From: Candidatus Gemmiger faecavium | GTDB taxonomy: Bacteria; Bacillota; Clostridia; Oscillospirales; Ruminococcaceae | Length of the DNA: 36,410 bases | Assembly: GCA_019114415.1 (NCBI GenBank) | Contig: DXFO01000051.1 | Span: 1 to 36,410 of the forward strand | Direction of reading: 5' to 3' | The notes under the pieces: generated by a model | The model's input: the letters and a program-made list of their open reading frames with translations, nothing else | The model's database searches: none | Told to the model about the DNA's origin: nothing | Position numbers and translations under genes: made by a program | In this document: in pieces, positions 2,230 to 32,809 of the stretch | How the letters are laid out: the number at the start of each line of letters is the position of its first letter | Position numbering within the stretch: position 1 is the first letter of the stretch

Positions 2230-2895
2230 ATGAACCGTATTCTGATCGTTGAGGATGAAACCAATATCGCCCGGTTGATCGAGATGAGTCTCTCCCGGGC
2301 GGGGTATGAGTGTACCGTCATCAACGACGGCATGCAGGCCGCCAACTGCATTGAGCAGAACAGCTTTGACCTGGCCCTTCTGGACATCATGCTGCCGGGG
2401 CTGGACGGCTACTCTCTGCTGGAATACCTGCGCCCCATGGGGACGCCGGTCATCTTCATCACCGCCAAAAGCGCCCTGAAAGACCGGGTGCAGGGGCTGC
2501 GTCTGGGAGCGGACGACTACCTGGTCAAGCCCTTTGAGATCGAGGAACTCATGGCCCGGGTGGAGACGGTTTTGCGCCGCACCGGCAAGGGCGGCCGGGT
2601 GCTCACCGCCTTTGATGTGGAGCTGGATACCGTCTCCCGCACCGTGACCAAAGAGGGAAAACCTCTGGACCTGACCCCGCTGGAATACGGCCTGCTGGAA
2701 CAGCTCATGCGCAACCGGGGAGCCGCCCTCTACCGGGATGTTTTGTATGAGCGGGTGTGGGGCGGCGAAATGACCGAGACCCGCACCCTGGACCTGCACA
2801 TCCAGCGCCTGCGGAAAAAGCTGGGGTGGCAGGACCGCATCGAGACGGTGTACAAGGTGGGCTACCGCCTGAAAAAAGAGGAGGAATCCCCGTGA
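2230..2895 (+). CDS. OmpR-family response regulator (first cassette)
   Basis: The 221-residue protein has an N-terminal receiver domain (about 1-115) and a C-terminal winged-helix DNA-binding domain (about 125-217). The receiver shows the acidic pocket E8-D9, the phospho-acceptor D52 in LLDIMLPGLDG, T78 and K100 in DDYLVKPF. The effector domain has the LTPLEYGLLEQL and DLHIQRLRKKL signatures. The start ATG at 2230 follows AAAGGAG at 2213-2219. The stop overlaps the GTG start of the kinase gene by four bases, so the two are translationally coupled and surely partners. It should control transcription on phosphorylation by the kinase. It is clearly paralogous to the regulator at 27208. Confidence 0.95.
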   Translation: MNRILIVEDETNIARLIEMSLSRAGYECTVINDGMQAANCIEQNSFDLALLDIMLPGLDGYSLLEYLRPMGTPVIFITAKSALKDRVQGLRLGADDYLVKPFEIEELMARVETVLRRTGKGGRVLTAFDVELDTVSRTVTKEGKPLDLTPLEYGLLEQLMRNRGAALYRDVLYERVWGGEMTETRTLDLHIQRLRKKLGWQDRIETVYKVGYRLKKEEESP

Positions 2896-4298
2896 AGTTT
2901 GCCCAAAAACTGGGCTGCGCCATGATGCTGGTGCTGGCGGTGTCCTTTTCGGCGGGAGGCTGTGCGCTGCTCTACGGCGATTTTGCCGACCGTCTGGCCG
3001 AGGCCGACGCCCAGAACCAGGCCCAGCACTCCCTGGCCTGCTACGCCGTGGAAAGCGAGATCCTTTCCCTGTACAGCCTGGGCGATGCCGTCACCGGGGA
3101 CGCCCTGGCCGCCGAGGTAGGGGAACTGACCGACACCGCCCCGGAAGGCAGCACCTTTGCCCTGTGGTATCAGGACAGACTGGTCTGCGGCCAGCTGCCG
3201 GGGGAGGTGCAGCCCATGGAGATGGAGTCCTCCCAGATCCGCTACGTCCGCACGGGGGAGACAGTCAGCGCCGTCTACTGCTCCGACCTGCTGGACGGGG
3301 CCAGGCTGTTCTCGGTGTTTGACGTCAGCTCGCTGTACGCCGCCCGCACCCGCAGCCTGCTGCGGTTTCTCACCATGGAGGGGGCGGTATTGCTCTGCGC
3401 CGCGGTGGTGGTGGTCCTGCTCAGCCGGCGCATGACCCGGCCCCTGGCTCTGCTCAACCGTGCCAGCGGGGAGATCGCCGCGGGGGCCTACGACCGCCGC
3501 ACCGCCGTGCCCGGCGATGACGAGATCGCCCAGCTCAGCCGCAGCTTTGACCACATGGCCGCCGCCGTGGAGGACAAGGTGGCCCAGCTGGAACTTTCGG
3601 TGCGCCAGCGGGACGACTTTATGGGGGCCTTCACCCACGAGCTGAAAACCCCCATGACCAGCATCATCGGCTACGCCGACATGCTGCGCAGCATGCACTG
3701 CGACCCCGACGAACAGAAGGAAGCCGCCGGAGCCATCTTCCACGAGGCAAAGCGGCTGGAATCTTTGAGCCGCAAACTGCTGCAGCTGCTGCGTCTCAGC
3801 GACGAGGAGCTGACCCTGACCCCCGTATCCCTGGACGGGGTGCTGCGGACGGTGCACCGGTCCATGGCCCCGGTCTGCCGGGCGGCGGGGATCACCCTGC
3901 GCATGCCCGGGGAGGAAGGCCTCACGGTGCGGGGGGACGCCGACCTTTTGACCGACCTTCTCTGCAACCTGATCCAGAACTCCGTCAAGGCCAGCCGGGA
4001 GGGGCAGATCGTGGAGGTCATCTGCCGCCGCCAGAAAAGCGGCAGCATCCTGCTGGGGGTGGCGGACGCGGGCATCGGCATCCCCGCCGAGGCCGTCAGC
4101 CGGGTCACCGAGCCCTTTTACATGGTGGACAAATCCCGCGCCCGCAAAAGCGGTGGCAGCGGCCTGGGCCTGGCCTTGTGCAGCAGCATCGCCCAGGCCC
4201 ACGGGACGGAACTGCGCATCCGAAGCCGGGAGGGCCGGGGGACCTGCATCACCGTGACCCTGACCCCCTGCCCGCCCCAAGGAGGTGACAACCCGTGA
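2892..4298 (+). CDS. Membrane sensor histidine kinase (first cassette)
   Basis: This is a 468-residue class I sensor kinase with a GTG start that overlaps the regulator stop. Transmembrane segment 1 is at about 8-28, an extracytoplasmic sensor domain of about 130 residues follows, and transmembrane segment 2 is at about 159-179. A HAMP linker comes next, then the dimerisation domain with the phospho-acceptor H249 in FTHELKTPM, and an ATPase domain with an N box (NLIQNS), G1 (DAGIGIPAE) and G2 (GGSGLGLAL). It autophosphorylates and passes phosphate to D52 of the regulator. The start MKFAQKL and the domain layout closely resemble the kinase at 27864. The sensor domain is not a recognised ligand-binding family. 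It overlaps the next gene by four bases. Confidence 0.95.
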   Translation: MKFAQKLGCAMMLVLAVSFSAGGCALLYGDFADRLAEADAQNQAQHSLACYAVESEILSLYSLGDAVTGDALAAEVGELTDTAPEGSTFALWYQDRLVCGQLPGEVQPMEMESSQIRYVRTGETVSAVYCSDLLDGARLFSVFDVSSLYAARTRSLLRFLTMEGAVLLCAAVVVVLLSRRMTRPLALLNRASGEIAAGAYDRRTAVPGDDEIAQLSRSFDHMAAAVEDKVAQLELSVRQRDDFMGAFTHELKTPMTSIIGYADMLRSMHCDPDEQKEAAGAIFHEAKRLESLSRKLLQLLRLSDEELTLTPVSLDGVLRTVHRSMAPVCRAAGITLRMPGEEGLTVRGDADLLTDLLCNLIQNSVKASREGQIVEVICRRQKSGSILLGVADAGIGIPAEAVSRVTEPFYMVDKSRARKSGGSGLGLALCSSIAQAHGTELRIRSREGRGTCITVTLTPCPPQGGDNP

Positions 4299-6565
4299 AA
4301 TTCCTGCATCCCAAAAACCGCCGCCCCAGGGCCGGGGCGGACAGCCGCAAAAAGCCGGAGACCCAAAACGCCCCGGACACCCCGGAAACCGAAAAGACGG
4401 CAGACGCGGGAGACCCCTCTGCCGGGCAGCCGGACGCAGGCCGATCCCCGGAGGACACGGACTTTCCCCCGGAGGCAGACCTGGACTGGTCGGGGCTTCG
4501 GGAGCCGGTGGGGGATACGGCCCCCCGCAGGCGGTTCCCCCTCTGGGCGGTGGGGTGTGCAGCGGTGATGGTGCTGGGGGCGCTGGCCCCCGCCGCCATG
4601 TTTGCCATTGCGGATACCACCCTCTTTTCCAGCCGGGAACAGACCGACGGCGGCTACCAGTCCCTGACCCCCAAGGGCAGCGACTACTATCTGGTGCGCA
4701 TGCTTCATGAGCGCCGGGACGCCAACTATGAAAGCAGCCTGTCCGACGGCAGCGGCCAGGGGGGCTTTTACTACCAGACCTATGCCTCCACCGGCAGCCT
4801 GCCCCTGGACTACAACCTGGCCCCCAAGGTGGAGCAGGTGATGGATGAGTATGTCAGTCTGGGCATTCTGGACAGCAGCTGGGTGGACGGCTTTTATCAG
4901 GACCTGGCCGCCGACGGCCTGACCCTGGATTACAACCTGTCCGGGTCCAGCGATACCCTGGGCTTTCTGTCCATTGCCTGCGATGCGGGGGACATCCGCC
5001 GTCTGGGCATCACCATGGAAGCCCGCACCGGCAAGGTGGTGGAGCTGTACATCCGCACCTCCTGGCCGGGACTGGCGGAATTCAGCGATGCCCGGGAGAT
5101 CCTGAACCAGTGGATCGTCCTCAACGACCTGGAGGACCTGGGGGACTGGGCGGTGCCCACCGGCACCTGCTGGGAGGACTTCGGCCTGTACAGCGCCCGG
5201 GGAGAACTCATGGCCATCTGCTGGCTGAGTGAAACCGAAAACGGCTCGGTCTTTTGGCTGGAACTGCAGCCCTGCACCGCCGAAATGCTGGCCGCGGGGA
5301 CCTTTGCCCCCTCGGCGGAGGACTCCGCCATCACCAGCGAAATGCTGGACCGGGAAACCCTGAAACAGCCCGCCCAGTGGGACAGAAAGGTCTACTCCGA
5401 CGGGGATACCGGCTATTACATCCGCGACCTGGACGACGGTTCGGGCCAGGTGCGGTATCTGGACTACACCGCCAACACCGACGGCTGCGTCTGCCAAAAG
5501 CCCGGCTGCACCCATGACAACGCCGACTGCCCCGCCTGGCTGAGCCGGGAGGAGATGGCGTACAGTCCGCCCGCTCTGTTTGCGGCGGAGGGCTGCGTCT
5601 ATCTGGCATTTTCAGGGGAGCAGGGCATCAATACCGAGGACCAGGCAGTGGGGATGCTGATGGAAAACGGCTGGGAAGTCACCGAGGAAAGCATCCGGGA
5701 CCTTCTGCGGGTGGGCGTCGAGCGCATTTCCGCCGACGGCCTGACTCGGGAGACGGTGGCCGACCTGCCGGAGGCGGCATCGGACTGGACCTGCGTGGCG
5801 GTGGACGGGACCAAAGCCTACTTTACCCGGTCCCTTGCCTACCGGGAGAGCGAGGAACCGGCGGACAACTATCTGGTCTGCGATGTGACCACCGGGCAGA
5901 TCACCCAAAGCCCGGCGCGGTTTTTCCGGTACGAGGAAGTGCTTGGCTGTTACGGCGGCTGTCTGCTGATCCGGCGGACGGTGGACCCCATTGACATCCT
6001 GCATTACTGGAGCAGCGCCCTGGGCTCGGCGGGGAAGACCACCAGCCTGTCCTGCTATGAGCTGGTGGACCCGGCCACGGGGGAGCGGCGCGCCGTCTCC
6101 ACAGGGAACTATTTCGAGCTGTATCCCCAGTGGTCGGTCATGGTTTCCGCCCGGGACAAACTGGTCACGGTGGGGGTCGCCACGGACGGCGTCTGCCGTG
6201 TGAACACGATGGACCTGCGCACCGGAGAGATGGAGGAGACCGACCTGCCCGACCTCCTGATAGAGCGGGTGCTGGGCGACGATGCCAACCTGGGTTACCA
6301 CATCGCGCCCGACTGCGGCCTGCCCTGGGTGCAGTTGTGGTATGACGACACGGTGATCTACTACGACCCCACAACAGGGGAGGTCCGCCAGAGCGTGCTG
6401 GAGGGACCCTGCGTGGTTCGGGCCCTGACCGGGGACGGCCGGGTGGTGGCGGAAAACCTGGGGATTACCGACCGGTCCGGCTACCTGGCGGGCCCGCCGG
6501 AGGACCTGTGGCAGAGTGCGCCGGCCTTCGCCCCCCTGCTGTGGGCGGATGACCCGCAGGCGTAA
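4295..6565 (+). CDS. Large membrane-anchored protein with extracellular accessory domain and Cys/His-motif propeller-like domain
   Basis: The 756-residue protein starts at GTG 4295, overlapping the kinase stop; AAGGAGGTGA at 4279-4288 is a very strong ribosome site. Residues 1-80 are charged and proline-rich (cytoplasmic), and one hydrophobic segment at about 84-106 anchors the rest outside. Residues about 110-350 align with the small protein at 29279 (shared TGKVV/TGDVV followed by a conserved LGDW). Residues about 355-756 resemble the lipoproteins at 30185 and 31481: repeated short strands and turns suggest a beta-propeller, opened by C398/C400-Q-K-P-G-C405-T-H407-x4-C412-P-A-W415. The family is not one I can name. 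Coupling to the kinase suggests that it modulates sensing or is the cell-surface output. Confidence 0.85.
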   Translation: MKFLHPKNRRPRAGADSRKKPETQNAPDTPETEKTADAGDPSAGQPDAGRSPEDTDFPPEADLDWSGLREPVGDTAPRRRFPLWAVGCAAVMVLGALAPAAMFAIADTTLFSSREQTDGGYQSLTPKGSDYYLVRMLHERRDANYESSLSDGSGQGGFYYQTYASTGSLPLDYNLAPKVEQVMDEYVSLGILDSSWVDGFYQDLAADGLTLDYNLSGSSDTLGFLSIACDAGDIRRLGITMEARTGKVVELYIRTSWPGLAEFSDAREILNQWIVLNDLEDLGDWAVPTGTCWEDFGLYSARGELMAICWLSETENGSVFWLELQPCTAEMLAAGTFAPSAEDSAITSEMLDRETLKQPAQWDRKVYSDGDTGYYIRDLDDGSGQVRYLDYTANTDGCVCQKPGCTHDNADCPAWLSREEMAYSPPALFAAEGCVYLAFSGEQGINTEDQAVGMLMENGWEVTEESIRDLLRVGVERISADGLTRETVADLPEAASDWTCVAVDGTKAYFTRSLAYRESEEPADNYLVCDVTTGQITQSPARFFRYEEVLGCYGGCLLIRRTVDPIDILHYWSSALGSAGKTTSLSCYELVDPATGERRAVSTGNYFELYPQWSVMVSARDKLVTVGVATDGVCRVNTMDLRTGEMEETDLPDLLIERVLGDDANLGYHIAPDCGLPWVQLWYDDTVIYYDPTTGEVRQSVLEGPCVVRALTGDGRVVAENLGITDRSGYLAGPPEDLWQSAPAFAPLLWADDPQA

Positions 6566-6730: not shown

Positions 6731-8260
<1,530 letters not shown>

Positions 8261-8807: not shown

Positions 8808-10193
8808 ATGGCAAAGCAAATTCCGGTATCCCAAATCGTACAGGCCGTGGGCGGCAAGGAAAACGTTGCCCAGGCCGCACACTGCGCCACCCGCCTTCGC
8901 GTGACCCCCAGGGACTGGGCCAAGGTGGATGAGGAAGCCCTGAAACAGATCCCCGGCGTTCTGGGCGTGGTGCACGGCGCCACCCAGGTGCAGATCATCA
9001 TCGGGGCGGAGGTCAACAACGTCTACAAGGAGTTCGTTGCGCTCACCGGCGTCGATGAGGAAGCGGCCATCGACGAAAACCTGGACCTCAAGCAGGATCT
9101 TGCCAACAAAAAGGGCAAGCTGCTCACCACTTTCTTTGAGACGGTGGCGGCCATCTTCAACCCCATCGTCCCGGCGCTGGCAGGCTGCGGCTTCCTGTCC
9201 GCCTTCATCTGCATCTTCATGGCTTTCGGCGCCTCCACCTCCCAGCCCACCTTCAACGTCATCGTGGCCATCTCCATGGCGGTGTTCACCTTCCTGCCCT
9301 TCCTGCTGGCAGCCAGCGCGGCCAAGGTCTTTAAGATGAACCAGTTCGTGGCCCTGACCATCTGCGCGGCCATGATGTCCACCACCTGGTCCGGCCTCAT
9401 CGCCGACGGCGTCGAGACCTACACCTTCCTGGGCATCCCCTTCCGCGTCATCGACTACTCCTCCTCGGTGCTGCCCATCGTCTTTGCCATCCTGCTGGCA
9501 TCCTACGTGGAGCGCTTTTTGGACAAGTACATCCCCGGCGCCCTCAAGATCATCCTGGTCCCGGCGCTGACCATCCTCATTGCCACCCCCATCACCCTGC
9601 TCACCGTCGGCCCCTTCACCTACTGGCTGGGCGAGGAACTTGCCGGCGGCGTCAACTGGCTGTTTGAGTACGGCGGTGTCTTTGCCGGCCTGGTCTACGG
9701 CGGCATTTACTCTGCCATGGTCGTTCTGGGCATCCATCACGGCATGGTCCCCGTCCTGACCCAGATGATCGCCACCCAGGGCTTCAACTACGTTTCTCCC
9801 ACCTCCGGTTCCGCCAACATCGGCCAGGCCGGCGCGGCCTTCGGCGTCTGGCTCAAGAGCAAGAACAAGACCCTCAAGGGCAATGCCGCTTCCGCTGCCT
9901 TCGCAGCCTGCACCGGCATCACCGAGCCTGTTGTCTACGGCGTCAACGTTCCTCTGGGCAAGCCTTTCCTCTTCGCCAGCATCGGCGGCGCCTGCGGCGG
10001 TGCCTTTGCCTCCTTCTTCCATCTGAAGGCCTACGTCATCGGCGGCCCCTCCTTCCTGAGCTTCGGCATGTTCATGGGCGGCGAGAACCCCATGTATAAC
10101 TGCGCCATGGTCATGGCTGGCTTTGTCATCGCCTTTGTGGTGGCGGCTGTGCTCACCGTGCTGTTCTGGAAGCCGGAAGAAAGCAAGCAGTGA
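8808..10193 (+). CDS. PTS EIIBC component, glucose/sucrose/beta-glucoside superfamily
   Basis: The 461-residue permease has an N-terminal EIIB domain (about 1-85) with the phospho-acceptor C26 in HCATRLRV, a linker, and a C-terminal EIIC domain with about ten membrane segments (about 100-455). GITEPVVYGVN at about 369-379 is the EIIC signature. No EIIA domain is attached or encoded nearby, so a EIIA from elsewhere must supply phosphate, as with MurP- or sucrose-type EIIBC proteins. It imports and phosphorylates a sugar; the divergent 6-phospho-beta-glucosidase points to a beta-glucoside. AAGGAGGAAGG before ATG 8808 is a strong ribosome site. It lies 26 bases after ridA, in the same operon. 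The substrate cannot be determined from the sequence. Confidence 0.93.
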   Translation: MAKQIPVSQIVQAVGGKENVAQAAHCATRLRVTPRDWAKVDEEALKQIPGVLGVVHGATQVQIIIGAEVNNVYKEFVALTGVDEEAAIDENLDLKQDLANKKGKLLTTFFETVAAIFNPIVPALAGCGFLSAFICIFMAFGASTSQPTFNVIVAISMAVFTFLPFLLAASAAKVFKMNQFVALTICAAMMSTTWSGLIADGVETYTFLGIPFRVIDYSSSVLPIVFAILLASYVERFLDKYIPGALKIILVPALTILIATPITLLTVGPFTYWLGEELAGGVNWLFEYGGVFAGLVYGGIYSAMVVLGIHHGMVPVLTQMIATQGFNYVSPTSGSANIGQAGAAFGVWLKSKNKTLKGNAASAAFAACTGITEPVVYGVNVPLGKPFLFASIGGACGGAFASFFHLKAYVIGGPSFLSFGMFMGGENPMYNCAMVMAGFVIAFVVAAVLTVLFWKPEESKQ

Positions 10194-11626: not shown

Positions 11627-12322
11627 ATGGCAGGGCGTACTGGACAGGTAAAGCTGACAAAAACAGACCGAGTGATTTTGGAATCCTATATCCCGGTGGT
11701 ACAGGATCTGGCCGTATACCTTGGCAGCAGCTACGAGATCGTGCTGCATTCCCTGGAGGATTACGACCATTCAGTCATTGCCATCGTCAACGGGGCGCAT
11801 ACCGGCCGCACCGTGGGCGCGCCCATCACCGACCTGGCTCTGGATATGCTGGACGTACTGTCCCAGGGCAAACCCTCCACGGCGTATTTCAGCACCAACA
11901 AAAAAGGGGAGCCCCTCAGGTCCACCACCATCGCCATCCGGGGCGAGCATGACCGCATCGTGGGCCTGCTGTGCATCAACCTGTATCTCAACACCCCCCT
12001 GTCCGAGATCCTGGCCGACCTGACCCCCGACCGTTTTGCCGGCGTCAGCGCCCCCGCCCGGGAGACCTTTGCCTCCAACACCGGGGAACTGATCGAGGCC
12101 GCCCTGGACGACATCCGCGCCCGGGTCATGCAGGATGCCTCCATCCTGCCCTCCAACAAAAACAAAGCCATTGTGGAGGAACTGTACGACAAGGGGATGT
12201 TCCGCCTCAAGGACGCGGTGGTCATTGCCGCCGACCTGCTGGGCATCTCCAAAAACACCATCTATATGCACATCCGCAATTACCGCAAGGCCTGCGGCCC
12301 GGAGGATTCCTCCCGCCGCTGA
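11627..12322 (+). CDS. YheO/DauR-type transcriptional regulator (PAS-like plus HTH)
   Basis: The 231-residue protein matches the two-domain YheO family. Residues about 12-125 form the YheO-like PAS domain (YIPVVQDLAVYLGSSYEIVLHSL, then AIRGEHDRIVGLLCINLYLNTPL). Residues about 170-225 form a helix-turn-helix of the HTH_22 type (IVEELYDKGMFRLKDAVV, then GISKNTIYMHIRNYRK). DauR of this family controls D-arginine catabolism, and other members are found beside RidA and PLP-enzyme genes. The ribosome site is weak (GGAG at 11610-11613). As the last gene of the cluster it is the best candidate to bind the operators at 8371-8386 and 8196-8209. Its ligand is unknown. Confidence 0.88.
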   Translation: MAGRTGQVKLTKTDRVILESYIPVVQDLAVYLGSSYEIVLHSLEDYDHSVIAIVNGAHTGRTVGAPITDLALDMLDVLSQGKPSTAYFSTNKKGEPLRSTTIAIRGEHDRIVGLLCINLYLNTPLSEILADLTPDRFAGVSAPARETFASNTGELIEAALDDIRARVMQDASILPSNKNKAIVEELYDKGMFRLKDAVVIAADLLGISKNTIYMHIRNYRKACGPEDSSRR

Positions 12323-22862: not shown

Positions 22863-22884
22863 TAGCAGAAAGAGGGCAAAGCCT

Positions 22885-23286: not shown

Positions 23287-23481
23287 AATCCAGCCAGGAA
23301 ACGCCACCCCGCCGGGCAGATTACGACATTAAACTGGATAAACTGCATTAACTGAAAACTGGTGACATCCCAAAACGCGGTTTAACCATGTTATGGGAAA
23401 AAGACAGAAAGACATCTTTAACAATGTACGATAAACCAAACAAAAATATAGTTCTAGATTAGAAGAATGCAATATATTGGC

Positions 23482-23542
23482 TTGACGTGTTGTGAACCCT
23501 CTATATAATGCGGTTGACGATTTGACCAATCTGGCATATAAT
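23482..23542 (+). promoter_or_regulatory. Tandem promoters of the Abi RNA and gene
   Basis: TTGACG (23482-23487), 16 bases, TATAAT (23504-23509), and TTGACG (23514-23519), 17 bases, TATAAT (23537-23542). Two near-consensus promoters 32-33 bp apart suggest strong expression of the RNA that follows. Confidence 0.85.
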
Positions 23543-23548
23543 AAAAGC

Positions 23549-23630
23549 AACAGATCCCGCCAAGCCTCTTAGGTGATATTCGTCATTGTACGGATACATT
23601 TAATGCGCAACAGGCGGGCCTTTTTGTTTA
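23549..23630 (+). ncRNA. Structured RNA upstream of the Abi gene (abiF-type motif candidate)
   Basis: From the predicted start near 23549, CCCGCC (23556-23561) pairs with GGCGGG (23613-23618), followed by CCTTTTTGTTT, a terminator-like end. Inside are a small CCT/AGG hairpin (23565-23573) and TATTCG/CGGATA (23577-23582 with 23591-23596). A conserved RNA called the abiF motif is known upstream of Abi_2-family genes; position, size and the terminator-like end fit. I cannot run a covariance search, so the family assignment is inference. Confidence 0.65.
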
Positions 23631-23646
23631 TTAGGGGATGTGTAAA

Positions 23647-24519
23647 ATGCCAACAAAACCATTTCTTACTCTGGACAAGCAAGTTGAACTCTTAAAAAGT
23701 AGAGGTCTCATTATCGAAGATGATGAATACGCAAAGAATCTGTTAGCCTCTGTTAATTACTACCGCTTCAGTGCCTATTCATTAACGCTTCGCCGAAATG
23801 ACGTTTTTAACCCAGACACGAAGCTGCAAGACATTTACTACTTATACAATTTTGACGCACGGTTGCGATCTTTTGTCCTTAAATACACCCCTAAAGTCGA
23901 AGTCTTGCTGCGTGCACACATGTCCTATATTCATTCAAAGAATCACGGCGCGTTGGGGTATCTAGACAGCAGTACCTTCAAAGATCCTTGGTATCATGCA
24001 CTGTTTTTGTCACGGCTGCAAAAGCTATTGAACGATTCAAAGGAAGCCTTCGTGCTCCATCACCGCAATGATTTGGATGGTCAATATCCATTTTGGGTCG
24101 CTGTCGAAGTGATGACTTTCGATCTGGCCTCCAAATGCCTGCAAAACATGAATAATCAAGATCAGGTAGAGATTGCCAAATATTATTCGATCCATCTCCG
24201 ATTCCTTGCAAACTGGATGCATTGTGTGGTTATCGCGCGAAATATTGCCGCGCATAACGGACGTTTTTATAATCGTCCGATCTCCACAAAACCTACCATC
24301 CCCAACGCCGTAAAAGGGCACTTTCGTTCAGATCGAGCATTTTCTTATCTGTATGTTATTTACCAATTACTAGAAAACGATACAGACAAAGAGCTGTTCA
24401 TTCATGATCTAAAGTCACTTTTGTCTGCATATGATCGCATCGACTGCTCTTGTATTGGGCTTCCTTCGGATTGGGAAAATGTTTTGACGACACCCATTCA
24501 TCCCCTTACCGTAGTATAA
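23647..24519 (+). CDS. Abi_2 family (AbiD/AbiF) abortive infection protein
   Basis: This 290-residue protein has the Abi_2 layout: TLDKQVELLKSRGLII at the N-terminus, NLLASVNYYRFSAYSLTLRR near 35-55, DIYYLYNFDARLRSFVLKYT near 75-95 and the HEPN-type catalytic motif ARNIAAHNGRFYNR near 198-211 (R-x4-H). Family members are phage-defence toxins, thought to be RNases, that stop growth of infected cells. I start at ATG 23647, 9 bases after AGGGG; an ATG at 23638 has no ribosome site. Codon use is much more AT-rich than the neighbours, a sign of separate transfer. It lies between the repressor and the integrase, the usual accessory slot of prophages and satellites, behind a probable regulatory RNA. 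Confidence 0.92.
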   Translation: MPTKPFLTLDKQVELLKSRGLIIEDDEYAKNLLASVNYYRFSAYSLTLRRNDVFNPDTKLQDIYYLYNFDARLRSFVLKYTPKVEVLLRAHMSYIHSKNHGALGYLDSSTFKDPWYHALFLSRLQKLLNDSKEAFVLHHRNDLDGQYPFWVAVEVMTFDLASKCLQNMNNQDQVEIAKYYSIHLRFLANWMHCVVIARNIAAHNGRFYNRPISTKPTIPNAVKGHFRSDRAFSYLYVIYQLLENDTDKELFIHDLKSLLSAYDRIDCSCIGLPSDWENVLTTPIHPLTVV

Positions 24520-24525
24520 AAAAAA

Positions 24526-24555
24526 CGCCCCCGGCGGCAACCGGGAACGGTTTTG
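24526..24555 (+). terminator. Weak terminator after the Abi gene
   Basis: CCCGG (24530-24534) pairs with CCGGG (24541-24545) between an A run and a short T run. The stem is imperfect beyond five pairs. Confidence 0.35.
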
Positions 24556-24659
24556 AATAGAACGGCTCACACAGCAACGTGTATAAGCAGCCCTAGCACC
24601 TGCAATTATACACCCTCCTGCGTGGGCTTGTCAAAGCATACCCACAAGGAGGTCTTTGT

Positions 24660-25733
24660 ATGGGCAGACGAACGAACACAGCCGCCTGGAACGGCAAGCG
24701 CTGGCGCATTGACGTGCAGAAGGACGGCACCCGCAAGAGCTTTTACAGCTCCAAGCCCGGCCGCACCGGCCAGCGGGAAGCAAACGCCAAAGCGGACGCC
24801 TGGCTGGAGGAAGGCATCGGGGCCAAAGCGCCCCGCGTCAGCGAAGCCGGGCAACTATGGCTGCAGGAAGTGCAGCTCACGACCAGCTCAACCAACTACC
24901 GCCCGCTGGAAAGCCGCTGGCGGGTCTGGGTGCTGCCCCAGATCGGCAGCAAGCGGGTCAGCAACCTGACAGACCAGGACCTGCAGAACATCGTCAACAA
25001 GGCATATTCCGCCGGGCGCAGCCGCAAGACGCTGCAGCTGCTTTGTGCAGACCTGCGGGCGTTTTGCAAGTATTGCCGCAAGTCAAAGTTTGCCCGTTAC
25101 ACGCCGGAAGATCTGCGCGTTCCCACCGGGGCCAGGTACAAAGGCAAAACCGTCCTGCAGCCGGCGGACCTTGTCAAGCTGTTCAATACTGACACGACCG
25201 TATATAAGGGCCGCACGGTACACGATGATTTCATCCAGGCGTACCGCTTCCAGGTGCTGACCGGCCTGCGTCCTGGTGAGCTGCTGGGCCTGCGCTGGGC
25301 AGATATTCACGGCAACACGGTGCAGGTGGCCCGCTCGGTCAACGTGGACGGCGAGGAAACCCAGGGCAAGAACCAGAATGCGGTGCGTGCCTTTGTGATG
25401 TCAGACATGGCCCGGCGGGTGCTGGAAGATCAGCGCCAGGTCACCGGCAGCGAGGACAGCGTGTTTGCCTTGGGCTCGGAACAGTATTATTACCACCGTT
25501 GGCGGGTGTACTGCAAGACCAACGGGCTGACGCCCTGCTCCCCCTACGAGCTGCGGCACACCTTTGTTTCTGTGGTCAAGACGCTGCCCGCCGGGGAGGT
25601 CAAGCAGCTGGTGGGCCACAGTCAGGACATGGACACCTTCGGCGTGTACGGCCACGCCCTGACCGGCGATGATGAGACCACCGCCCAGGCCGTGAACGGG
25701 GTGTTCCTGCGTGTGCTGAAAACCGCCCAATAG
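24660..25733 (+). CDS. int: Site-specific tyrosine recombinase (integrase)
   Basis: The 357-residue integrase has an N-terminal arm-binding domain (about 1-55), a core-binding SAM-like domain (about 60-150) and a catalytic domain (about 165-350). Catalytic residues are R204 in TGLRPGELLGLRW, a beta-hairpin lysine near K237, R299 in YELRHTF, H320 in LVGHSQDMDT and the nucleophile Y330 in FGVYGH. The first histidine of the HxxR box is Y296, as in some Gram-positive integrases. It catalyses exchange between the tRNA-Val attachment site and the element. AAGGAGG lies 8-9 bases before ATG 24660. The arm-type repeats follow its stop directly, and attR is 145 bases downstream. Confidence 0.97.
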   Translation: MGRRTNTAAWNGKRWRIDVQKDGTRKSFYSSKPGRTGQREANAKADAWLEEGIGAKAPRVSEAGQLWLQEVQLTTSSTNYRPLESRWRVWVLPQIGSKRVSNLTDQDLQNIVNKAYSAGRSRKTLQLLCADLRAFCKYCRKSKFARYTPEDLRVPTGARYKGKTVLQPADLVKLFNTDTTVYKGRTVHDDFIQAYRFQVLTGLRPGELLGLRWADIHGNTVQVARSVNVDGEETQGKNQNAVRAFVMSDMARRVLEDQRQVTGSEDSVFALGSEQYYYHRWRVYCKTNGLTPCSPYELRHTFVSVVKTLPAGEVKQLVGHSQDMDTFGVYGHALTGDDETTAQAVNGVFLRVLKTAQ

Positions 25734-26060: not shown

Positions 26061-26870
26061 TCACTCCGCCACGGTCACAGAGGTGATGTGGGGGTTGACA
26101 CCCTCGTACCAGTACAGGAAGCCCTCGGCGTCGATGGTCTGGCCGATCTCCAGGTTCTTGACGGCGGAGTAGACCTCGGTGGTGCTGTCGCACAGGTAGC
26201 TCTCCACCAGGAAGGTGTAGGTCTCGCCGTTGTAGGAAACGTTGAAGTACAGGTCATCGCCCTCGGTGCCGGAGCCGTCCCAGCCGTACAGGAAAGCAGC
26301 TTCCTCGCCGTTGGCGTCGGTGCTGGGGGCAACGGTCAGGCCGGTGAAGCTGACCAGCTGGTTCTGGTGGTCGATGAGCTCCTCGGTGCCCAGCAGGTCG
26401 GTGACGTCCAGCGGGGTGGCAACGAAGGTGTCGGCGCCGTCCACGAACTCAAAGGTGGCTTCCATCAGCTCGACCTCACCGGACCAGATGGTCTTGTAGC
26501 CGGTGACGCGGATGCAGGTGCCCGGGGTCAGCTTTTCGTAGTCTTCCTCGGAGCAGGCCATGTCATAGAAGAAGTAGGCGCCGTCCTCGTCCTGAGCGTA
26601 GATGGTGGCCTTGTCCTCCCACCAGGACTGCTTGGCCTGGACGTAAGCCTCCACGGTGACCAGGGTGTCCACGTCGGCGGCCATGTACTCGTCGTAGCTC
26701 AGCACTTCGCCGGTGGCGCCGGTCTCGGCGGTGGCGTCCTCAGAGCTGTCGGTGGCCACGGAAGAGGACTCCTCCGCGGTGGACTGGCTTTCGGAAGAAG
26801 GATTGCCCGCGCAGGCAGCCAGGGACAGGGTCAGGCTCAGCGCCAGGACGGCAGAAATCAGCTTTTTCAT
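26061..26870 (-). CDS. OB-fold-like lipoprotein
   Basis: The 269-residue protein has a lipoprotein signal (MKKLISAVLALSLTLSLAAC, lipobox LAAC with acyl-Cys at 20) and an acidic Ser/Glu/Thr linker (about 22-55). Two beta-rich domains follow. The first (about 67-145, LVTVEAYVQAKQSWWEDKAT, then TPGTCIRVTGYKTIWSGEVE) has the strand order of an OB fold, and the second (about 165-265) looks like a diverged copy. It is anchored outside the membrane. The ligand is unknown; such OB-fold lipoproteins are common in gut Clostridia. AAGGAG precedes ATG 26870. It is monocistronic. Confidence 0.8.
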   Translation of the reverse strand: MKKLISAVLALSLTLSLAACAGNPSSESQSTAEESSSVATDSSEDATAETGATGEVLSYDEYMAADVDTLVTVEAYVQAKQSWWEDKATIYAQDEDGAYFFYDMACSEEDYEKLTPGTCIRVTGYKTIWSGEVELMEATFEFVDGADTFVATPLDVTDLLGTEELIDHQNQLVSFTGLTVAPSTDANGEEAAFLYGWDGSGTEGDDLYFNVSYNGETYTFLVESYLCDSTTEVYSAVKNLEIGQTIDAEGFLYWYEGVNPHITSVTVAE

Positions 26871-27207: not shown

Positions 27208-27867
27208 ATGTATCCCGTTCTCATTGTGGAGGACGAGCGTCCCATCGCCGACCTCATCGACCTGACCCTGCGGCGGATGCAGTACACCTGCGTCCAGGCC
27301 CACAGCGGGGAGCAGGCCGCCGACCTGATTTTGAGCCGGAAGTTCGACCTCATTTTGCTGGACGTCATGCTGCCCGGCATCGACGGCTTCGGCCTGATGG
27401 AGTACATCGCCCCCACCGGCACGCCGGTCATCTTTCTCAGCGCCCGCTCCAGTGTGGAGGACCGGGTCAAGGGCCTGCGGCTGGGGGCCTACGACTACAT
27501 CGTCAAGCCCTTTGCCCCGGAGGAACTTCTGGCCCGGGTGGACGGGCTCATGCGCCACACCGGCCGCCGCAGCGCAAAAATTACGCTGTGGGATGTATCC
27601 ATCGACCCGGAAGCCCGGGCCGTCACCCGGGAGGGCCGGCCGGTGGAGCTGACCCCCAAGGAATACGACCTGCTGATGGTATTGCTCCAGAGCCGGGGCA
27701 TCGCCCTCTACCGCAGCGTGCTGCTGGAACGGGTGTGGGGGCTGGACAGCGACACCGGGCCCCGGGCGCTGGACCTGTACATCTCCCGCCTGCGCAAAAA
27801 GCTGGGCTGGGGGGACAGGATCCGCACCGTATCCGGGGTGGGGTATCTTTTGGAGGGGGAGCCATGA
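27208..27867 (+). CDS. OmpR-family response regulator (second cassette)
   Basis: The 219-residue protein has a receiver with E8-D9, phospho-acceptor D52 in LLDVMLPGIDG, S78 and K100 in YDYIVKPF. Its winged-helix output domain starts near 125 (LTPKEYDLLMVLLQSRG, then DLYISRLRKKLGW). It is paralogous over its full length to the regulator at 2230. GGAAAGGAG precedes ATG 27208. Its stop overlaps the kinase ATG as ATGA. The box repeated upstream of its own gene and of the lipoprotein pair is the best candidate for its binding site. Confidence 0.95.
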   Translation: MYPVLIVEDERPIADLIDLTLRRMQYTCVQAHSGEQAADLILSRKFDLILLDVMLPGIDGFGLMEYIAPTGTPVIFLSARSSVEDRVKGLRLGAYDYIVKPFAPEELLARVDGLMRHTGRRSAKITLWDVSIDPEARAVTREGRPVELTPKEYDLLMVLLQSRGIALYRSVLLERVWGLDSDTGPRALDLYISRLRKKLGWGDRIRTVSGVGYLLEGEP

Positions 27868-29291
27868 ACTTTGCCCACAAACTCACCCTGGCAGTGGCGC
27901 TGCTGCTCTGCGTGACCCTGTCGGCGGGCGGGGCGTGGACCATCGGGCAGAACTTTTCCGCCGCCCTGGATGCCTCCGCCGCCGACGCCGCCGTGGCCCA
28001 TATGCGGGAGCGCTATGCCGTGGAGGACCTGCTCTCCGGTGTGGACACCCTGCCCGACGCCGCCGACGCGGTGCGGGACTACGCCGCGGGGCTGCAGCTT
28101 TCCGGCGGTGGGACCAACTACCGGTTTTCGGTGCTCACCGGGCAGGGGGTGGTGGTGTGGTCGGACATGCCCGCCGCCGTCCGCTTTGCCGACCAGTGGC
28201 AGGCGGTGGAGGCCGGCACGGGGGGCATGGTCTACTGCGGCACCGCCGACGCCCGGTATCTGCTGCTGGCCTCCCCCTTGCAGACAACGGAGGAGGAACT
28301 TTACCTGGTGGGGGGCTACGACGTCACCCGCCAGTTCACCGAGCACCGCCGCCAGGTCCGGCAGTATCTGGTGGTGGAGTGCGTGGCCCTGGCCCTGGCC
28401 CTCACCGCCGCGGCCTTGCTGGCCTGGGCGCTGACCCGGCCCCTGCGCCGGCTGGAAGCCGCCAGCCGGGACATTGGGGCGGGGCGGTATGAGCGCCGGG
28501 TTCAGGTGAAGGGCGGGGGAGAGTTCGCCCGTCTGGCGGAAGGTTTCAACACCATGGCGGGAGCGGTGCAGAGCAACATGGACGCCCTGCGCCGACAGAA
28601 CGAGAGCCGCACCCGGTTCGTGGCGGCCTTCACCCACGAGCTGAAAACCCCCATGACGGCCATTCTGGGCTATGCCGACCTGCTGCGCAGCGGGGAACAG
28701 CCCGCCGATGTCCGGCAGCTGGCCGCCGACTACATTTATCACGAATCCGCCCGGCTGGAACACCTGAGCCGGGAACTGCTGACCCTGATGGGGGTGGAGG
28801 AAGGCCCGCCCCCCGCCCTGCAGCCGGAGCCGGTGGCGGGGATCTTCGGGGACGCGGTGCGCAGCCTGCCCGACCTGGGCGGCGTCCGGCTGGAAAGCAG
28901 CTGCCCGCCCGGGGCAAGGGTGCTGGCCAACCGGGCGCTGCTGGCGGATCTTCTGCGCAATCTTATCCTCAACGCCGGGGCGGCCGCCCCGGCGGAGGGC
29001 GGGGTCATCCGCCTGACCTGTGAGCGGCAGGGGGAAGCCTGGCGGCTGCGGGTGCAGGACAACGGCCGGGGCATCCCGGCGGAGGACCTGCCCCATGTCA
29101 CCGAGGCCTTTTACATGGCGGACAAAAGCCGCACCCGCGCCCGGGGCGGCAGCGGCCTGGGGCTGAGCCTGTGCGCGGCCATCGCCCGGGCCCACGGCAG
29201 TTTTCTGGTCATTGACAGCGAACCGGGACGGGGGACCTGCGTCTCCCTGGACCTGAGACCGGGGGAGGAGGCCGCGCCATGCACAGACTGA
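27864..29291 (+). CDS. Membrane sensor histidine kinase (second cassette)
   Basis: The 475-residue kinase has transmembrane segments at about 6-28 and about 168-190, with an extracytoplasmic sensor of about 140 residues between. A HAMP linker and the HisKA domain follow, with H258 in FTHELKTPM. The ATPase domain shows NLILNA, DNGRGIPAE and GGSGLGLSL. It starts MNFAHKL, like MKFAQKL in the kinase at 2892, and the two share layout and many residues in the catalytic half. The sensor domains are less alike, so the signals may differ. It overlaps the regulator by 4 bases and the next gene by 13, so all three are coupled. Confidence 0.95.
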   Translation: MNFAHKLTLAVALLLCVTLSAGGAWTIGQNFSAALDASAADAAVAHMRERYAVEDLLSGVDTLPDAADAVRDYAAGLQLSGGGTNYRFSVLTGQGVVVWSDMPAAVRFADQWQAVEAGTGGMVYCGTADARYLLLASPLQTTEEELYLVGGYDVTRQFTEHRRQVRQYLVVECVALALALTAAALLAWALTRPLRRLEAASRDIGAGRYERRVQVKGGGEFARLAEGFNTMAGAVQSNMDALRRQNESRTRFVAAFTHELKTPMTAILGYADLLRSGEQPADVRQLAADYIYHESARLEHLSRELLTLMGVEEGPPPALQPEPVAGIFGDAVRSLPDLGGVRLESSCPPGARVLANRALLADLLRNLILNAGAAAPAEGGVIRLTCERQGEAWRLRVQDNGRGIPAEDLPHVTEAFYMADKSRTRARGGSGLGLSLCAAIARAHGSFLVIDSEPGRGTCVSLDLRPGEEAAPCTD

Positions 29292-30004
29292 ACATTTCCG
29301 CCCGTTTCCGGGGAAAACTCCCCGCCATTCTGGCCACGGCGGGGGTGCTGGCGGCGTGCGGGGCGTCTTTGCTGCTGCCGGGCATCTGGGGTGCGCGGCA
29401 GGAAGCGGCCCTTCTGGACGGCCCCGCCGCCCGTCCCGCCGTGGCGGGCCTGCCCGACGAGGAAGCCCGGGCCATCCCCGTCCTGTACGACCTGTACCGC
29501 ACCCGGCTGCAGCCAGGGAACTTCGGCTGGCAGGAGGGGGATATGTCCCTGCTGCCGGAACTGGAAGGATGCCTGGACCGCCTGGCGGACAGCGGGGTGC
29601 TGCCCCGGGAAATGCCCGCCGCGGTGCAGCCGGCCCTGGACGCCGCCGCGGCAGGGGCGGAGGATACCTCCTGCCTGACCCAGCGCACCGGCAATTTTGC
29701 GGGGGTGCAGGTCAGCGCCGGCGGGTCCGGGAGCTGTTTTGTCTCCGCCGTGTGGGACACTGCCACCGGGGACGTGGTCTCCCTGAACCTGTCGGGGGAG
29801 CTGCCCGCCGCCGACCCCGCCGCCGTGCTGGATGCCTGGCGGCAGGATCTGGGGCTGGATGTGCTGGGAGACTGGCAGGACGAGAGCACCGAAACGGGGG
29901 TGTCCTCCTGGTCGGACAAGGCCCAGGTCTATCTCTACTGCGCGGCGGAGGAAAACTCCCTGCGCCTGACCATGACCAATCTTTCGGGGATGGAACGGGG
30001 CTGA
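29279..30004 (+). CDS. Membrane or lipid-anchored accessory protein of the second cassette
   Basis: The 241-residue protein has a basic start (MHRLNISARFRGK) and one hydrophobic stretch (about 15-38), which contains LAAC. It could be a signal anchor or a lipoprotein signal. The outside part contains DLYRTRLQPGNFGW, CLDRLADSGVLP and TATGDVVSLNL, then VLGDW. These align in order with residues about 115-350 of the large protein at 4295 (VMDEYVSLGILD, ARTGKVVELYI, DLGDW). ATG 29279 lies inside the kinase gene. It is likely the separate counterpart of the accessory domain fused to the propeller in the first cassette. The function is unknown. Confidence 0.8.
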   Translation: MHRLNISARFRGKLPAILATAGVLAACGASLLLPGIWGARQEAALLDGPAARPAVAGLPDEEARAIPVLYDLYRTRLQPGNFGWQEGDMSLLPELEGCLDRLADSGVLPREMPAAVQPALDAAAAGAEDTSCLTQRTGNFAGVQVSAGGSGSCFVSAVWDTATGDVVSLNLSGELPAADPAAVLDAWRQDLGLDVLGDWQDESTETGVSSWSDKAQVYLYCAAEENSLRLTMTNLSGMERG

Positions 30005-30033
30005 GGGGGCAAAGTTGTAAAACATCCCCGCGG

Positions 30034-30066
30034 TGAAACAAAAATGACAAGGGGCCGTGGTACCCT
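30034..30066 (+). promoter_or_regulatory. Regulator box and promoter of the lipoprotein pair
   Basis: The 17-base box of 27142 is repeated exactly at 30034-30050, again with 10 bases to a -10-like TACCCT (30061-30066). The poor -10 suggests dependence on an activator. Confidence 0.65.
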
Positions 30067-30184
30067 GACAGCATACCGCCCCCCGGGCGGCGTCTGAATC
30101 AGGAATCGAGAACACGCGGCCGCAAGGGAAACGGCAGACAAAGCCTGCTGTTTTGTGGAACCGCGCAGAAAGGCAGGCCTTTGT

Positions 30185-31462
30185 ATGAAAAAGAGTTTTC
30201 CCCGTGCCGTTGCCCTGACGGCAGCCGCGGCCCTGGCCGTTTCCCTGGCGGGGTGCACCCCGGGGTATGAGGACTACGCCGAACCCCTGGCCACCCAGGA
30301 GTCCGCCCCCGACACCGCCCCGGCATCGGGAGAGCTGCAGATGCTCTCCCACGGCACCGACGACGGCTATTACCTGTCCCTCATGGACCTGACCCGGGGC
30401 AGCGAGGAGCGCACCGACCTGCTGGGCTATGTGGATTACGCCCAGACCCGGGCCGCGGTGCTCTGTGCCCAGCCCAACTGCACCCACAGCGACGGCAACT
30501 GTCCCGCCTGGCAGGGCGTCTGGGGCGGGTCGGCCTGGGCGCTGCCCGGCGGGGAGCACATCGTCACCAACACGGTGGAGGACTCCGGCGAGGAGCAGGT
30601 GTATGTGCTTACCCTCTGCGCCCCCGACGGCACCGAGGAAAAAACGCTGTGCCGGAGTGCAAACAACAACATCCCCACCATGGCGGACGACCACTGGCTC
30701 TACTGCCTGACCGGGCAGGGGCTGAACCTGTGGCGGGTGCCGCTGGACGGGGGCGAGCCGGAAGAACTGGTCACCCTCAACGCCTACGATGTGGAGGGCT
30801 GCCTGGGCCGGGAAATTTTCTACCCCGTCTACGGCAGCGCGGAGCAGGCCGACGGCACCGCCCTGACCACCCTGACCTACACGGCGTACAACATCGATAC
30901 CGGGGCCACCCGGGTGCTGCTGGATGTGAGCTATTCCTCCGACAACATCAGCAACCCCTACCTGGACATGGACGGGGCCACCCTCTACTGGTACGACCCC
31001 GCGGCGGGCAGCCTCTGCGTGGTGGACGTGAAAACGGGAGAGGAATCCCGCATGCCCGTGAACTGGGACTTCAGCCGCGCCGGATGCGGGACCATCTACC
31101 AGACCACCCCCTGTGCCGTGGTGGACGGCAAGCTCATTGTGGACCAGTACGGGGACATGGGGTCCTGCCGGGCGGCGGTGAACCCTGCCGACGGCTCCGC
31201 CTATGAGCTGACCCTGGGCTACATCCGCAATGGCCGCTCCGAGAGCGTGCAGATTTTGGCCCGGAGCAGCCACGGCCTGCTGGTCAAGTACGAAAACCGC
31301 CTGACCTCCAAGGACGAGGTAAAGGACGACGGCTCGGTGGGGACGGTGGACATCGAACAGGTGCGCCTGGCCCTCATCGACCCGGAGGCGTTCCTCCAAA
31401 ACCAGCCCGACTACCGGGACATTGCCCCGGTGGAAGGCTTTGACGGCGAATTTGCCTGCTGA
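30185..31462 (+). CDS. Propeller-like lipoprotein with Cys/His motif (first of pair)
   Basis: The 425-residue lipoprotein has the signal ALTAAAALAVSLAGC with the acyl-Cys in the lipobox LAGC. After a short linker comes C94-A-Q-P-N-C99-T-H101-x4-C106-P-A-W109, the motif shared with 4295 and 31481. The rest is made of short strands and turns in repeated blocks of about 45-50 residues (YCLTGQGLNLWRVPLDGGEP, GATLYWYDPAAGSLCVVDVK), typical of a beta-propeller. ATG 30185 is preceded by AAAGG at a long distance. It should be displayed on the outer membrane face. The motif may bind a metal or hold disulphides. The product could be a sensor accessory or a target of the two-component system. Confidence 0.85.
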   Translation: MKKSFPRAVALTAAAALAVSLAGCTPGYEDYAEPLATQESAPDTAPASGELQMLSHGTDDGYYLSLMDLTRGSEERTDLLGYVDYAQTRAAVLCAQPNCTHSDGNCPAWQGVWGGSAWALPGGEHIVTNTVEDSGEEQVYVLTLCAPDGTEEKTLCRSANNNIPTMADDHWLYCLTGQGLNLWRVPLDGGEPEELVTLNAYDVEGCLGREIFYPVYGSAEQADGTALTTLTYTAYNIDTGATRVLLDVSYSSDNISNPYLDMDGATLYWYDPAAGSLCVVDVKTGEESRMPVNWDFSRAGCGTIYQTTPCAVVDGKLIVDQYGDMGSCRAAVNPADGSAYELTLGYIRNGRSESVQILARSSHGLLVKYENRLTSKDEVKDDGSVGTVDIEQVRLALIDPEAFLQNQPDYRDIAPVEGFDGEFAC

Positions 31463-31480
31463 CGGGGAAAGGAAACGGAT

Positions 31481-32809
31481 ATGAAGAAAGCTATGTTTCG
31501 CCCTCTGGCCGGGCTGACCGCCGCGGCCGTGATGCTCTCCCTGGCAGGCTGCGGCCCCGCCAGCCGGGCGGGCAATACCCACACCCCCGCCAACGCCACA
31601 AGGGAAAGCGCCCCGGCGGGCGCGCTGGAACTGCTGGCCCCCGGCAACGGCCGGGGCATGTACACAAACTTTATCCGCAGCGACGGCGCGGGCGGCTGGA
31701 GCAGCCTGCGGTGCTGGGTGGACTACGGCGGCGCGGTGGAGACCATCCTCTGCGCCCAGCCCAACTGCACCCATGACGGCGATGTCTGCACCGCCTGGAT
31801 CGACCCCGAAGTCAGCGAGAGCAGCTACGTCCTGGGGGGCGATATGCTCTGCGCCGGGTACGGCATGGACACCATGACCCTGACCCTGCGGAAGGGGGAC
31901 GGCTCCGACCCGAAGGTACTGTACGAGAGTGCCTCCTACCTGTCCCCCCGCATGACCGACGGGGAGTGGCTCTACTTTGAGCAGGAGACGGCAAACGGGG
32001 AAGGCCCCGCCGCCAACGCCCTGTACCGCGTTTCCCTGTCCGGGGGCGAGGCGGAAAAACTCTTTGACCTGCCCTATCCCGTGGAATCCGACGCCGGGCT
32101 GCTGGGGTGTACCGGGCGGGAAGCCATTTTTTACACCTTCCATTGGGGGGACGACGACACCCCCATGCCCGAGATGACTGACGGCATGACCCGGGAGGAG
32201 TACGACGCCGCCGTGACCCGGTGGGCCGAGAGCCAGCAGGGCAGCCACCGCATCTACGCCAAAAACGTGGACACCGGCGCCGAGCGGGAGCTGGCCGCCT
32301 GGAACTCCGCTCTGGGCAGTGCGGGCAGCACCTGCGCCATGGCGGAGGGCACCATCTATCTGCTGCCCGACCGGAGCCTGGGGGAGCTGACCGCCATCGA
32401 CCCCGCCACGGGCAAGAGCACGACCACCGCCGTGGCCTGGCCCTTTGACATCCCGGCGGAGGAGATCTACACCATCGCCATCAGGGGGACGGTGGAGGGC
32501 AAGGTCATTGCCGACGTCACCACCCTGGAAGGGGGCGACCGCCGCGTAGCCATTGACCCCGCCGACGGCAGCGCCCGGGAACTGACCCTCCATTACATTT
32601 CCAACGGCCACGTCAAGGGCATCCGCATCCTGGGGCAGGGCGGCGGCAAGCTGCTGGTCTGCTATGAGCAGCGGATGGAGGACGCGGTGGCCGTGGGTTC
32701 CGACGGCATGACCTTTGTGGGCACCGATGTCAACGAGCGGTGGGCCATGATCGACGCCGCCGATTTCCTGGCCGACAACCCCGCCTATCAGGACCTGCAA
32801 TCCGCCTGA
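31481..32809 (+). CDS. Propeller-like lipoprotein with Cys/His motif (second of pair)
   Basis: The 442-residue protein is a paralogue of the one before it, 18 bases downstream in the same transcript. Its signal MKKAMFRPLAGLTAAAVMLS ends in the lipobox LAGC. The motif is C91-A-Q-P-N-C96-T-H98-x4-C103-T-A-W106. Propeller-like blocks follow (DGEWLYFEQETANGEGPAAN, then ALYRVSLSGGEAEKLFDLPY), and the end DAADFLADNPAYQDL matches DPEAFLQNQPDYRDI of its neighbour. Such pairs may differ in ligand. GGGGAAAGGAAA lies before ATG 31481. Confidence 0.85.
   Translation: MKKAMFRPLAGLTAAAVMLSLAGCGPASRAGNTHTPANATRESAPAGALELLAPGNGRGMYTNFIRSDGAGGWSSLRCWVDYGGAVETILCAQPNCTHDGDVCTAWIDPEVSESSYVLGGDMLCAGYGMDTMTLTLRKGDGSDPKVLYESASYLSPRMTDGEWLYFEQETANGEGPAANALYRVSLSGGEAEKLFDLPYPVESDAGLLGCTGREAIFYTFHWGDDDTPMPEMTDGMTREEYDAAVTRWAESQQGSHRIYAKNVDTGAERELAAWNSALGSAGSTCAMAEGTIYLLPDRSLGELTAIDPATGKSTTTAVAWPFDIPAEEIYTIAIRGTVEGKVIADVTTLEGGDRRVAIDPADGSARELTLHYISNGHVKGIRILGQGGGKLLVCYEQRMEDAVAVGSDGMTFVGTDVNERWAMIDAADFLADNPAYQDLQSA

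Follow-up and report, generated by a model that had tools for sequence, protein, structure and literature searches.

The stretch of DNA analysed here (the window: 36,410 nucleotides of contig DXFO01000051.1 from Candidatus Gemmiger faecavium) carries two cassettes in which a two-component system is followed by genes for extracellular partner proteins, all on the forward strand. The first cassette (2230-6565) has the order response regulator (RR), histidine kinase (HK), fused protein; the second (27208-32809) has the order RR, HK, accessory protein (ACC), propeller lipoprotein, propeller lipoprotein.

Cassette 1 begins with RR1 (2230-2895), an OmpR/PhoB-type response regulator (Pfam Response_reg 3.6e-28, Trans_reg_C 3.1e-21). 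HK1 (2892-4298) has a GTG start codon and contains HAMP, HisKA, and HATPase_c domains by Pfam; the region N-terminal to HAMP is taken as the extracellular sensor. The third gene (4295-6565) encodes P0003, a 756-residue protein composed of an N-terminal tail, a transmembrane helix, an ACC domain, and a propeller. The ACC part, delimited by hhalign, spans residues ~81-326 (4535-5272) and comprises the transmembrane helix (81-112) and an outer domain. The propeller part spans residues ~353-756 (5351-6562), as judged from hhalign to the split propellers and Foldseek of the whole model, and carries a Cys/His motif, C400-x4-C405-x-H407-x4-C412 (5492-5530; alignment A2). The genes overlap by four bases at both junctions (RR1/HK1 and HK1/P0003), as had been noted in the preliminary description of this DNA.

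Cassette 2 begins with RR2 (27208-27867), also of the OmpR/PhoB type by Pfam and 56% identical to RR1, and HK2 (27864-29291), a histidine kinase by Pfam and 37% identical to HK1. The separate ACC protein, P0006 (29279-30004; 241 residues), has an N-terminal transmembrane helix (14-47) and an outer alpha/beta domain, according to its predicted model and the family hidden Markov model (HMM). RR2 and HK2 overlap by 4 bases, HK2 and ACC by 13 bases. Two propeller lipoproteins, identified by the family HMM, complete the cassette: P0007 (30185-31462; motif C94-x4-C99-x-H101-x4-C106) and P0008 (31481-32809; motif C91-x4-C96-x-H98-x4-C103), with the motifs placed by alignment A2. They are 34% identical to each other, and both have an LAGC lipobox at residues 21-24, with Cys24 as the lipobox cysteine. 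A 1248-residue open frame on the opposite strand (29111-32857, minus) is regarded as a high-GC shadow frame of the genuine genes. The RRs and HKs of both cassettes are ordinary by Pfam, whereas none of the proteins P0003, P0006, P0007, and P0008 passes a curated Pfam or NCBIfam cut-off.

The identities between RRs and between HKs, together with the profile matches of the outer parts described below, agree with the earlier view that the two cassettes are paralogous in gene order. In a tree of 53 kinases, HK1 and HK2 each group with their own orthologues and not with each other, indicating that the cassettes are older paralogues rather than a recent duplication. A recent tandem duplication is thus rejected on the kinase tree, although the cassettes are adjacent in a genome of the same genus (G151, locus L043, contig C7, 650000-668000). 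There, the split cassette stands first and the fused one directly follows; in the window, the order is opposite, with the fused cassette first and the split cassette ~20 kilobases (kb) further on.

The preliminary description had proposed that P0003 unites an accessory and a propeller-like domain that are separate proteins in cassette 2. Profile-profile alignment of both parts, set beforehand as the test, is positive for each against shuffled-column controls. BLAST of P0003 against P0006 is only marginal (E 0.035), and the fused/split relationship of ACC therefore rests on profiles. Hhalign of three fused against eight split accessory proteins gives a probability of 95.9. With transmembrane-free ACC domains and 50 split sequences, the probability is 99.5 and the score 138.3 (maximum of 50 column shuffles, 19.8); the score is 104.8 (shuffled maximum, 17.0) when the five split relatives nearest the fused type are removed, and 151.1 (shuffled maximum, 18.5) when part of the transmembrane helix is retained in several rows. 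The proposed homology of P0006 thus stands, but the proposed range, fused residues ~115-350, does not: the true range starts from the transmembrane helix and runs from ~80 to ~326. For the propeller part, BLAST of P0003 gives E 2e-8 against P0007, over 64 residues only and at the Cys/His motif, and E 1e-5 against P0008. Hhalign of the fused propeller against the split propellers scores 189.1, and the match survives removal of the Cys-motif region (110.7; maximum of 30 shuffles of the reduced part, 21.0), bearing out the suggestion that the lipoproteins resemble fused residues ~355-756.

The predicted structures agree with this domain assignment. In the P0006 model (predicted local distance difference test, pLDDT, 90.3; predicted template modelling score, pTM, 0.77), the transmembrane helix 14-47 is followed by helices 67-75, 89-104, and 111-124, four strands (130-172), helix 180-190, and four strands (199-234). 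In the P0003 model (pLDDT 75.4; pTM 0.70), the ACC part has the transmembrane helix 81-112, helices 176-188 and 194-206, four strands (215-255), helix 266-276, and three strands (297-326). Compared without superposition, the fused and split ACC models thus have much the same order of predicted secondary-structure elements. Residues 366-733 of the P0003 model are strand-rich. Foldseek of this model gives 328 matches under E 0.001; the 50 listed are led by what we take, from their titles, to be propeller-bearing proteins, and include the propeller domain 2gop (template modelling score 0.62 by target). The propeller profile A2 matches SAKe6 designs in the PDB (best 1.1e-13) and oligogalacturonate lyase (1.9e-4); these designs and most other matched titles are presumably propellers. 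The propeller part is accordingly predicted to adopt a beta-propeller fold, and the model check thus yields both a shared ACC element order and a propeller. Foldseek of the P0006 model finds no PDB match under E 0.001; 4pw1 from Clostridium leptum, a protein of unassigned function, ranks seventh (template modelling scores 0.34/0.36) and is a lead only.

ACC is a single-pass membrane family of ~230-300 residues without a Pfam name. Some weak signals point toward PepSY-type proteins. Although the cut-off of Pfam PepSY (PF03413) is not reached, one of 34 (alignment A8) and one of 41 (alignment A10) members hit this family, with best E values of 0.0033 and 0.0034, and the ACC profiles match the PepSY structure 9vy3 in the PDB at E 0.0015 and 0.00059. 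Hhalign of the broad ACC alignment against 19 PepSY domains gives a weak score of 25.6 (probability 26; shuffled maximum, 19.0), and hhalign of ACC with the transmembrane core cut off against YcdB/C gives a weak score of 39.6 (probability 34; shuffled maximum, 25.5). YycH and YycI are accessory proteins of WalK; neither family appears when the 34 and the 41 ACC members are compared with Pfam at E up to 0.1.

The ACC family is tightly linked to one type of kinase. An ACC alignment searched through 396 family genomes (E up to 1e-4, at most six candidates scored per genome) matches in 32 genomes at 53 reported places, and the HMM finds 53 ACC open reading frames (ORFs) in the 53 neighbourhoods, window included. 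An HK lies directly upstream of ACC in all 53 places, 52 by script and one (L127, where the HK and RR frames overlap upstream of ACC) by eye. An RR lies upstream in 52; the stretch of the remaining place (L090) shows none. A propeller gene accompanies ACC in 50 of the 53 places. In 43 it is the next gene downstream, in 10 it lies upstream (the one in L043 belongs to the neighbouring cassette), and in 3 it is fused. The examined stretches of the other three (L121, L122, and L123) contain no propeller gene. The propeller gene may stand before the RR, between RR and HK, or after ACC, and the association persists. The order RR-HK-accessory-propeller, for which a survey of related genomes had been suggested, is therefore repeated in other genomes, including a Candidatus Stoquefichus record (L187).

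The kinases of the family, HK1 among them, carry a signature with patterns around AFTHELKTPMTS and TEPFYMVDKSR. Every ACC-adjoining kinase matches at least one of the two patterns, and six other HKs in the loci match neither. We also scanned named genomes kinase-first with the kinase alignment A7 and took the best 80 of 583 loci; their record titles name Gemmiger, Faecalibacterium, Lachnospiraceae, Oscillospiraceae, Clostridium, one Candidatus Stoquefichus, and one Ktedonosporobacter. With an iterated HMM, ACC is recognised in 67 of the 80, in all cases directly behind the kinase and never elsewhere. A strict profile, with the transmembrane core cut off and training on the first 53 only, finds it in 31 of the 80 at E 0.001, all adjacent to the kinase, among 5414 ORFs. 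The 80 loci overlap partly with the 53 places (L163 and L042, for example) and the kinase patterns derive from ACC-linked kinases, so the two sets are not independent. ACC is thus the constant partner of the kinase and the propeller an optional part. In three of the 13 loci that give no ACC match (L188, L208, and L213; records titled Lachnospiraceae for two and Parablautia for one), a DUF6034 protein stands in place of ACC behind the same kinase type.

A class survey with the broad ACC profile A10 gives matches in 23 of 291 genomes at E 0.001. The six best places (L256-L261) are all RR-HK-ACC. Open frames of 661-729 residues account for ten of the 25 rows. Five of these stretches were read: four (L251 and L253-L255) hold YcdB/C-type proteins and one (L252) is unassigned, indicating that the lower rows are not HK-linked ACC. 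The broad profile also picks up YcdB/YcdC (DUF4901), YpeB, and PepSY proteins weakly. Unlike ACC, the four YcdB/C-type proteins contain repeats of DUF4901 and, in three cases, S-layer (SLH) domains, and the 4.5-kb stretches read contain no HK or RR.

The fused form occurs at five loci, four of them distinct: the window, L043, L042/L163 (the same contig, judged by length and place), and L164. None of the five has a separate propeller in the 3.9-4 kb downstream of the fused gene, while 43 of 50 non-fused ACC genes have a propeller next downstream. The fused form makes up one clade in both the propeller tree and the HK tree. Propellers are commoner than ACC, being found in 78 of 197 family genomes, many without ACC. 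The propeller tree has 127 rows: 79 linked ones, each with a same-strand ACC gene less than 5 kb away, 45 others, and 3 fused ones. The linked/other division requires 4-5 changes on this tree, compared with 37-39 in shuffles, none of 500 being as low, although the starred branches force only 2; it is a FastTree tree with many long branches, a weak root, and other rows from hand-picked places. Three of the 79 linked rows fall among the others.

The columns of the Cys/His motif are invariant in the 19 sequences of alignment A2, and the motif is present in 109 of the 127 propellers. Linked propellers carry it in 71 of 79 cases, the others in 35 of 45, and the fused ones in 3 of 3, which rules it out as a requirement for kinase linkage. 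The Cys3His motif may hold metal or disulphides. Both propeller copies of L116, L117, and L118 lack it and form a sub-branch of the kinase-linked propellers. A loose lipobox pattern is found in 114 of 124 non-fused propeller ORFs. Locus L044 (genome G152, contig C20) has five propeller lipoproteins in tandem and a sixth nearby, with the Cys/His motif kept and no kinase in the examined stretch. One candidate, a 269-residue lipoprotein of the window (26061-26870, minus) that scored as a propeller, is rejected because the match is essentially to the signal-peptide region; its G151 counterpart is dropped too.

To compare the evolution of the parts, we started from 45 cassettes whose propeller is downstream or fused, kept the 35 that are non-redundant, and compared the protein distances of each pair of parts by partial rank correlation, given the other three parts. 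The known contact, kinase core-RR, ranks highest (0.51). The outer pairs come next (sensor-ACC 0.27, ACC-propeller 0.27, sensor-propeller 0.22), as expected of an outer complex. Lower values are obtained for sensor-core (0.18), core-propeller (0.14), sensor-RR (0.09), ACC-RR (0.08), RR-propeller (0.05), and ACC-core (0.03). In 500 subsamples, sensor-ACC exceeds ACC-core in all and ACC-propeller exceeds core-propeller in 92%. With 52 cassettes, the sensor-ACC correlation, core and RR being given, reaches 0.34 and exceeds every one of 1000 permutations.

The computation establishes the homology of the domains and their fusion, predicts their folds, and shows a near-invariant gene linkage and a co-divergence of the outer parts. 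Since an ACC family stands directly behind this kinase type in many gut bacteria, it probably has a part in environmental sensing by these kinases. Profiles, models, and recurring gene order also support the earlier argument that parts found both fused and split work together; from these we infer the sensory role. The best-supported reading is that ACC is a co-receptor of the kinase and the propeller an added outer reader. On balance, we favour the view that each cassette adds an outer signal reader to a two-component system, in which ACC and propeller would read a signal and set the kinase. The outer domain of ACC would sit on the extracellular sensor region of the neighbouring kinase and tune its balance between kinase and phosphatase activity. 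The beta-propeller, held by a lipid anchor in cassette 2 and joined covalently to ACC in cassette 1, would bind an outside ligand or envelope component and pass its state to ACC, and the response regulator would carry the result to genes. The sensor would then be a three- or four-part assembly.

Several observations weigh against this reading. Among the 67 ACC loci of the kinase scan, 52 have a propeller neither fused nor directly downstream at E < 1e-20, and 27 examined loci have propellers without ACC, three of them right after another kinase type; the propeller is therefore not needed for ACC-kinase function generally. Genes beside such a system may also be its outputs. Shared fast evolution of proteins outside the membrane could contribute to the co-divergence, and the core-propeller value lies close below those of the outer pairs. 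The iterated HMM was trained on its own hits, and 13 of the 80 kinase-fetched loci give no ACC match, two of them (L218 and L222) ending just behind the kinase. The P0003 model is of middling confidence, and the alignment behind it mixed fused, ACC-only, and propeller-only rows. The 53-sequence ACC alignment gives no hhalign match to PepSY domains (probability 0.4); ACC is perhaps a member of a PepSY/YcdB-like superfamily, but this assignment is weak, with signals below formal membership.

The alternative that survives best, which we nevertheless consider unlikely, is that ACC alone modulates the kinase and the propeller lipoproteins are surface outputs controlled by the regulator, kept adjacent for co-expression. 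It would account for a constant ACC and an optional propeller (15 of the 67 ACC loci, two fused included) and for propellers that occur alone or in tandem arrays, such as the five of L044. However, covalent fusion of ACC and propeller in four distinct loci suggests action in one place, the kinase-linked propellers form a near-exclusive part of the tree, and co-divergence of the propeller is stronger with ACC and sensor than with the RR. The fusion and the clade-specific propellers thus argue against the propeller being only an output. A less probable alternative is that ACC is a chaperone or stability factor of the kinase, for membrane insertion or dimer formation, and the propeller is unrelated to signalling. 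One ACC per kinase and the 4- to 13-base gene overlaps in the window fit this proposal, but the outer domain of ACC is large, fast-changing, and co-diverges with the sensor, not the kinase core, and the propeller fusion is left unexplained. That the genes are together by operon inheritance without shared function is most improbable: the loci are compact co-directional operons, but all ACC matches in the examined loci (6471 and 5414 ORFs) lie next to a kinase, and the association holds across records that bear titles such as Gemmiger, Lachnospiraceae, and Oscillospiraceae, while gene order varies.

The co-receptor reading can be extended, tentatively and with more doubt than conviction. The whole clostridial HK clade with the signature AFTHELKTPMTS...TEPFYMVDKSR might be obligately paired with a membrane-anchored PepSY-like subunit as the true signal-reading arm. 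In Gemmiger relatives, a propeller that catches a ligand and bears a Cys3His site for metal or disulphide would have been added, sometimes welded to the subunit as a one-chain co-receptor.

Two-component systems with accessory proteins or propeller lipoproteins at their side are already known in kind. LpqB, encoded in the actinobacterial MtrA-MtrB-LpqB system, carries a beta-propeller. It is reported to interact with the extracellular domain of MtrB and to influence MtrA phosphorylation (PMC3353115; PMC12338722). The RR-HK-lipoprotein gene order is alike, but here the kinase is followed by a membrane-anchored ACC, which precedes the propeller or is fused to it, and the window does not have a propeller lipoprotein directly after the kinase. 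The 19 propeller members have no LpqB-type Pfam match; five families appear at E up to 0.1, none named LpqB. In the DbfQRS system of Vibrio cholerae, a small extracytoplasmic PepSY protein is likewise encoded beside RR and HK; DbfQ is reported to bind the sensory domain of DbfS and to shift DbfS toward phosphatase activity, and PepSY-HK-RR modules are reported to be widespread (PMC12714742). DbfQ is described there as a secreted periplasmic protein of 135 residues encoded upstream of RR and HK, whereas ACC has ~230-300 residues, is membrane-anchored, lies downstream of the kinase and below the Pfam PepSY cut-off, and is often paired with a propeller.

In the Clostridia, a likeness by description is seen in the wal operon of C. 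difficile (walA-walR-walK-truA2). Its first gene encodes WalA, a lipoprotein with a predicted beta-propeller that is suspected to modulate WalK; its role was studied together with the other genes of the operon, among which no ACC-like gene is named (PMC9210968). QseG, an enterobacterial outer-membrane lipoprotein comparable with ACC and propeller by description only, is reported as an accessory protein that controls the kinase QseE (PMC12691602, PMC6075780). The claim that the module is undescribed accordingly holds for Pfam, NCBIfam, and the openly accessible literature searched, in which we found no published description of an ACC-propeller kinase module among the leading matches, but not for accessory and propeller partners as a kind.

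To our knowledge, most clostridial sensor kinases have no known input. In C. difficile, according to a commentary, very few of roughly 50 two-component systems are characterised (PMC10601699). A Pfam-unnamed family that lies behind this kinase type in most loci examined and is found fused to a propeller names a likely input subunit, and P0003 is a ready single-chain construct for binding, structure, and ligand screens. If the proposed role is true, the accessory-protein principle of MtrAB-LpqB and DbfQRS extends to Gram-positive gut commensals.

Other features of the window lie beside and between the two cassettes. Beside cassette 1 lie a GH1 glycosidase (6731-8179, minus), a PTS EIIBC protein (8808-10193), and a PAS_6/HTH_22 regulator (11627-12322), probably glucoside uptake genes. 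Further on between the cassettes are tRNA-Val (14683-14758), a sigma-70-like protein (17209-18255, minus), an HTH regulator (21990-22595), an Abi_2 protein (23638-24519), and a phage-type integrase (24660-25733); the stretch 14683-25733 looks like an integrated mobile element. Cassette 2 is followed by a TrkA-like protein (32889-33569), a TrkH-like protein (33586-34884), and a Y-family DNA polymerase (34974-36311), all on the minus strand.

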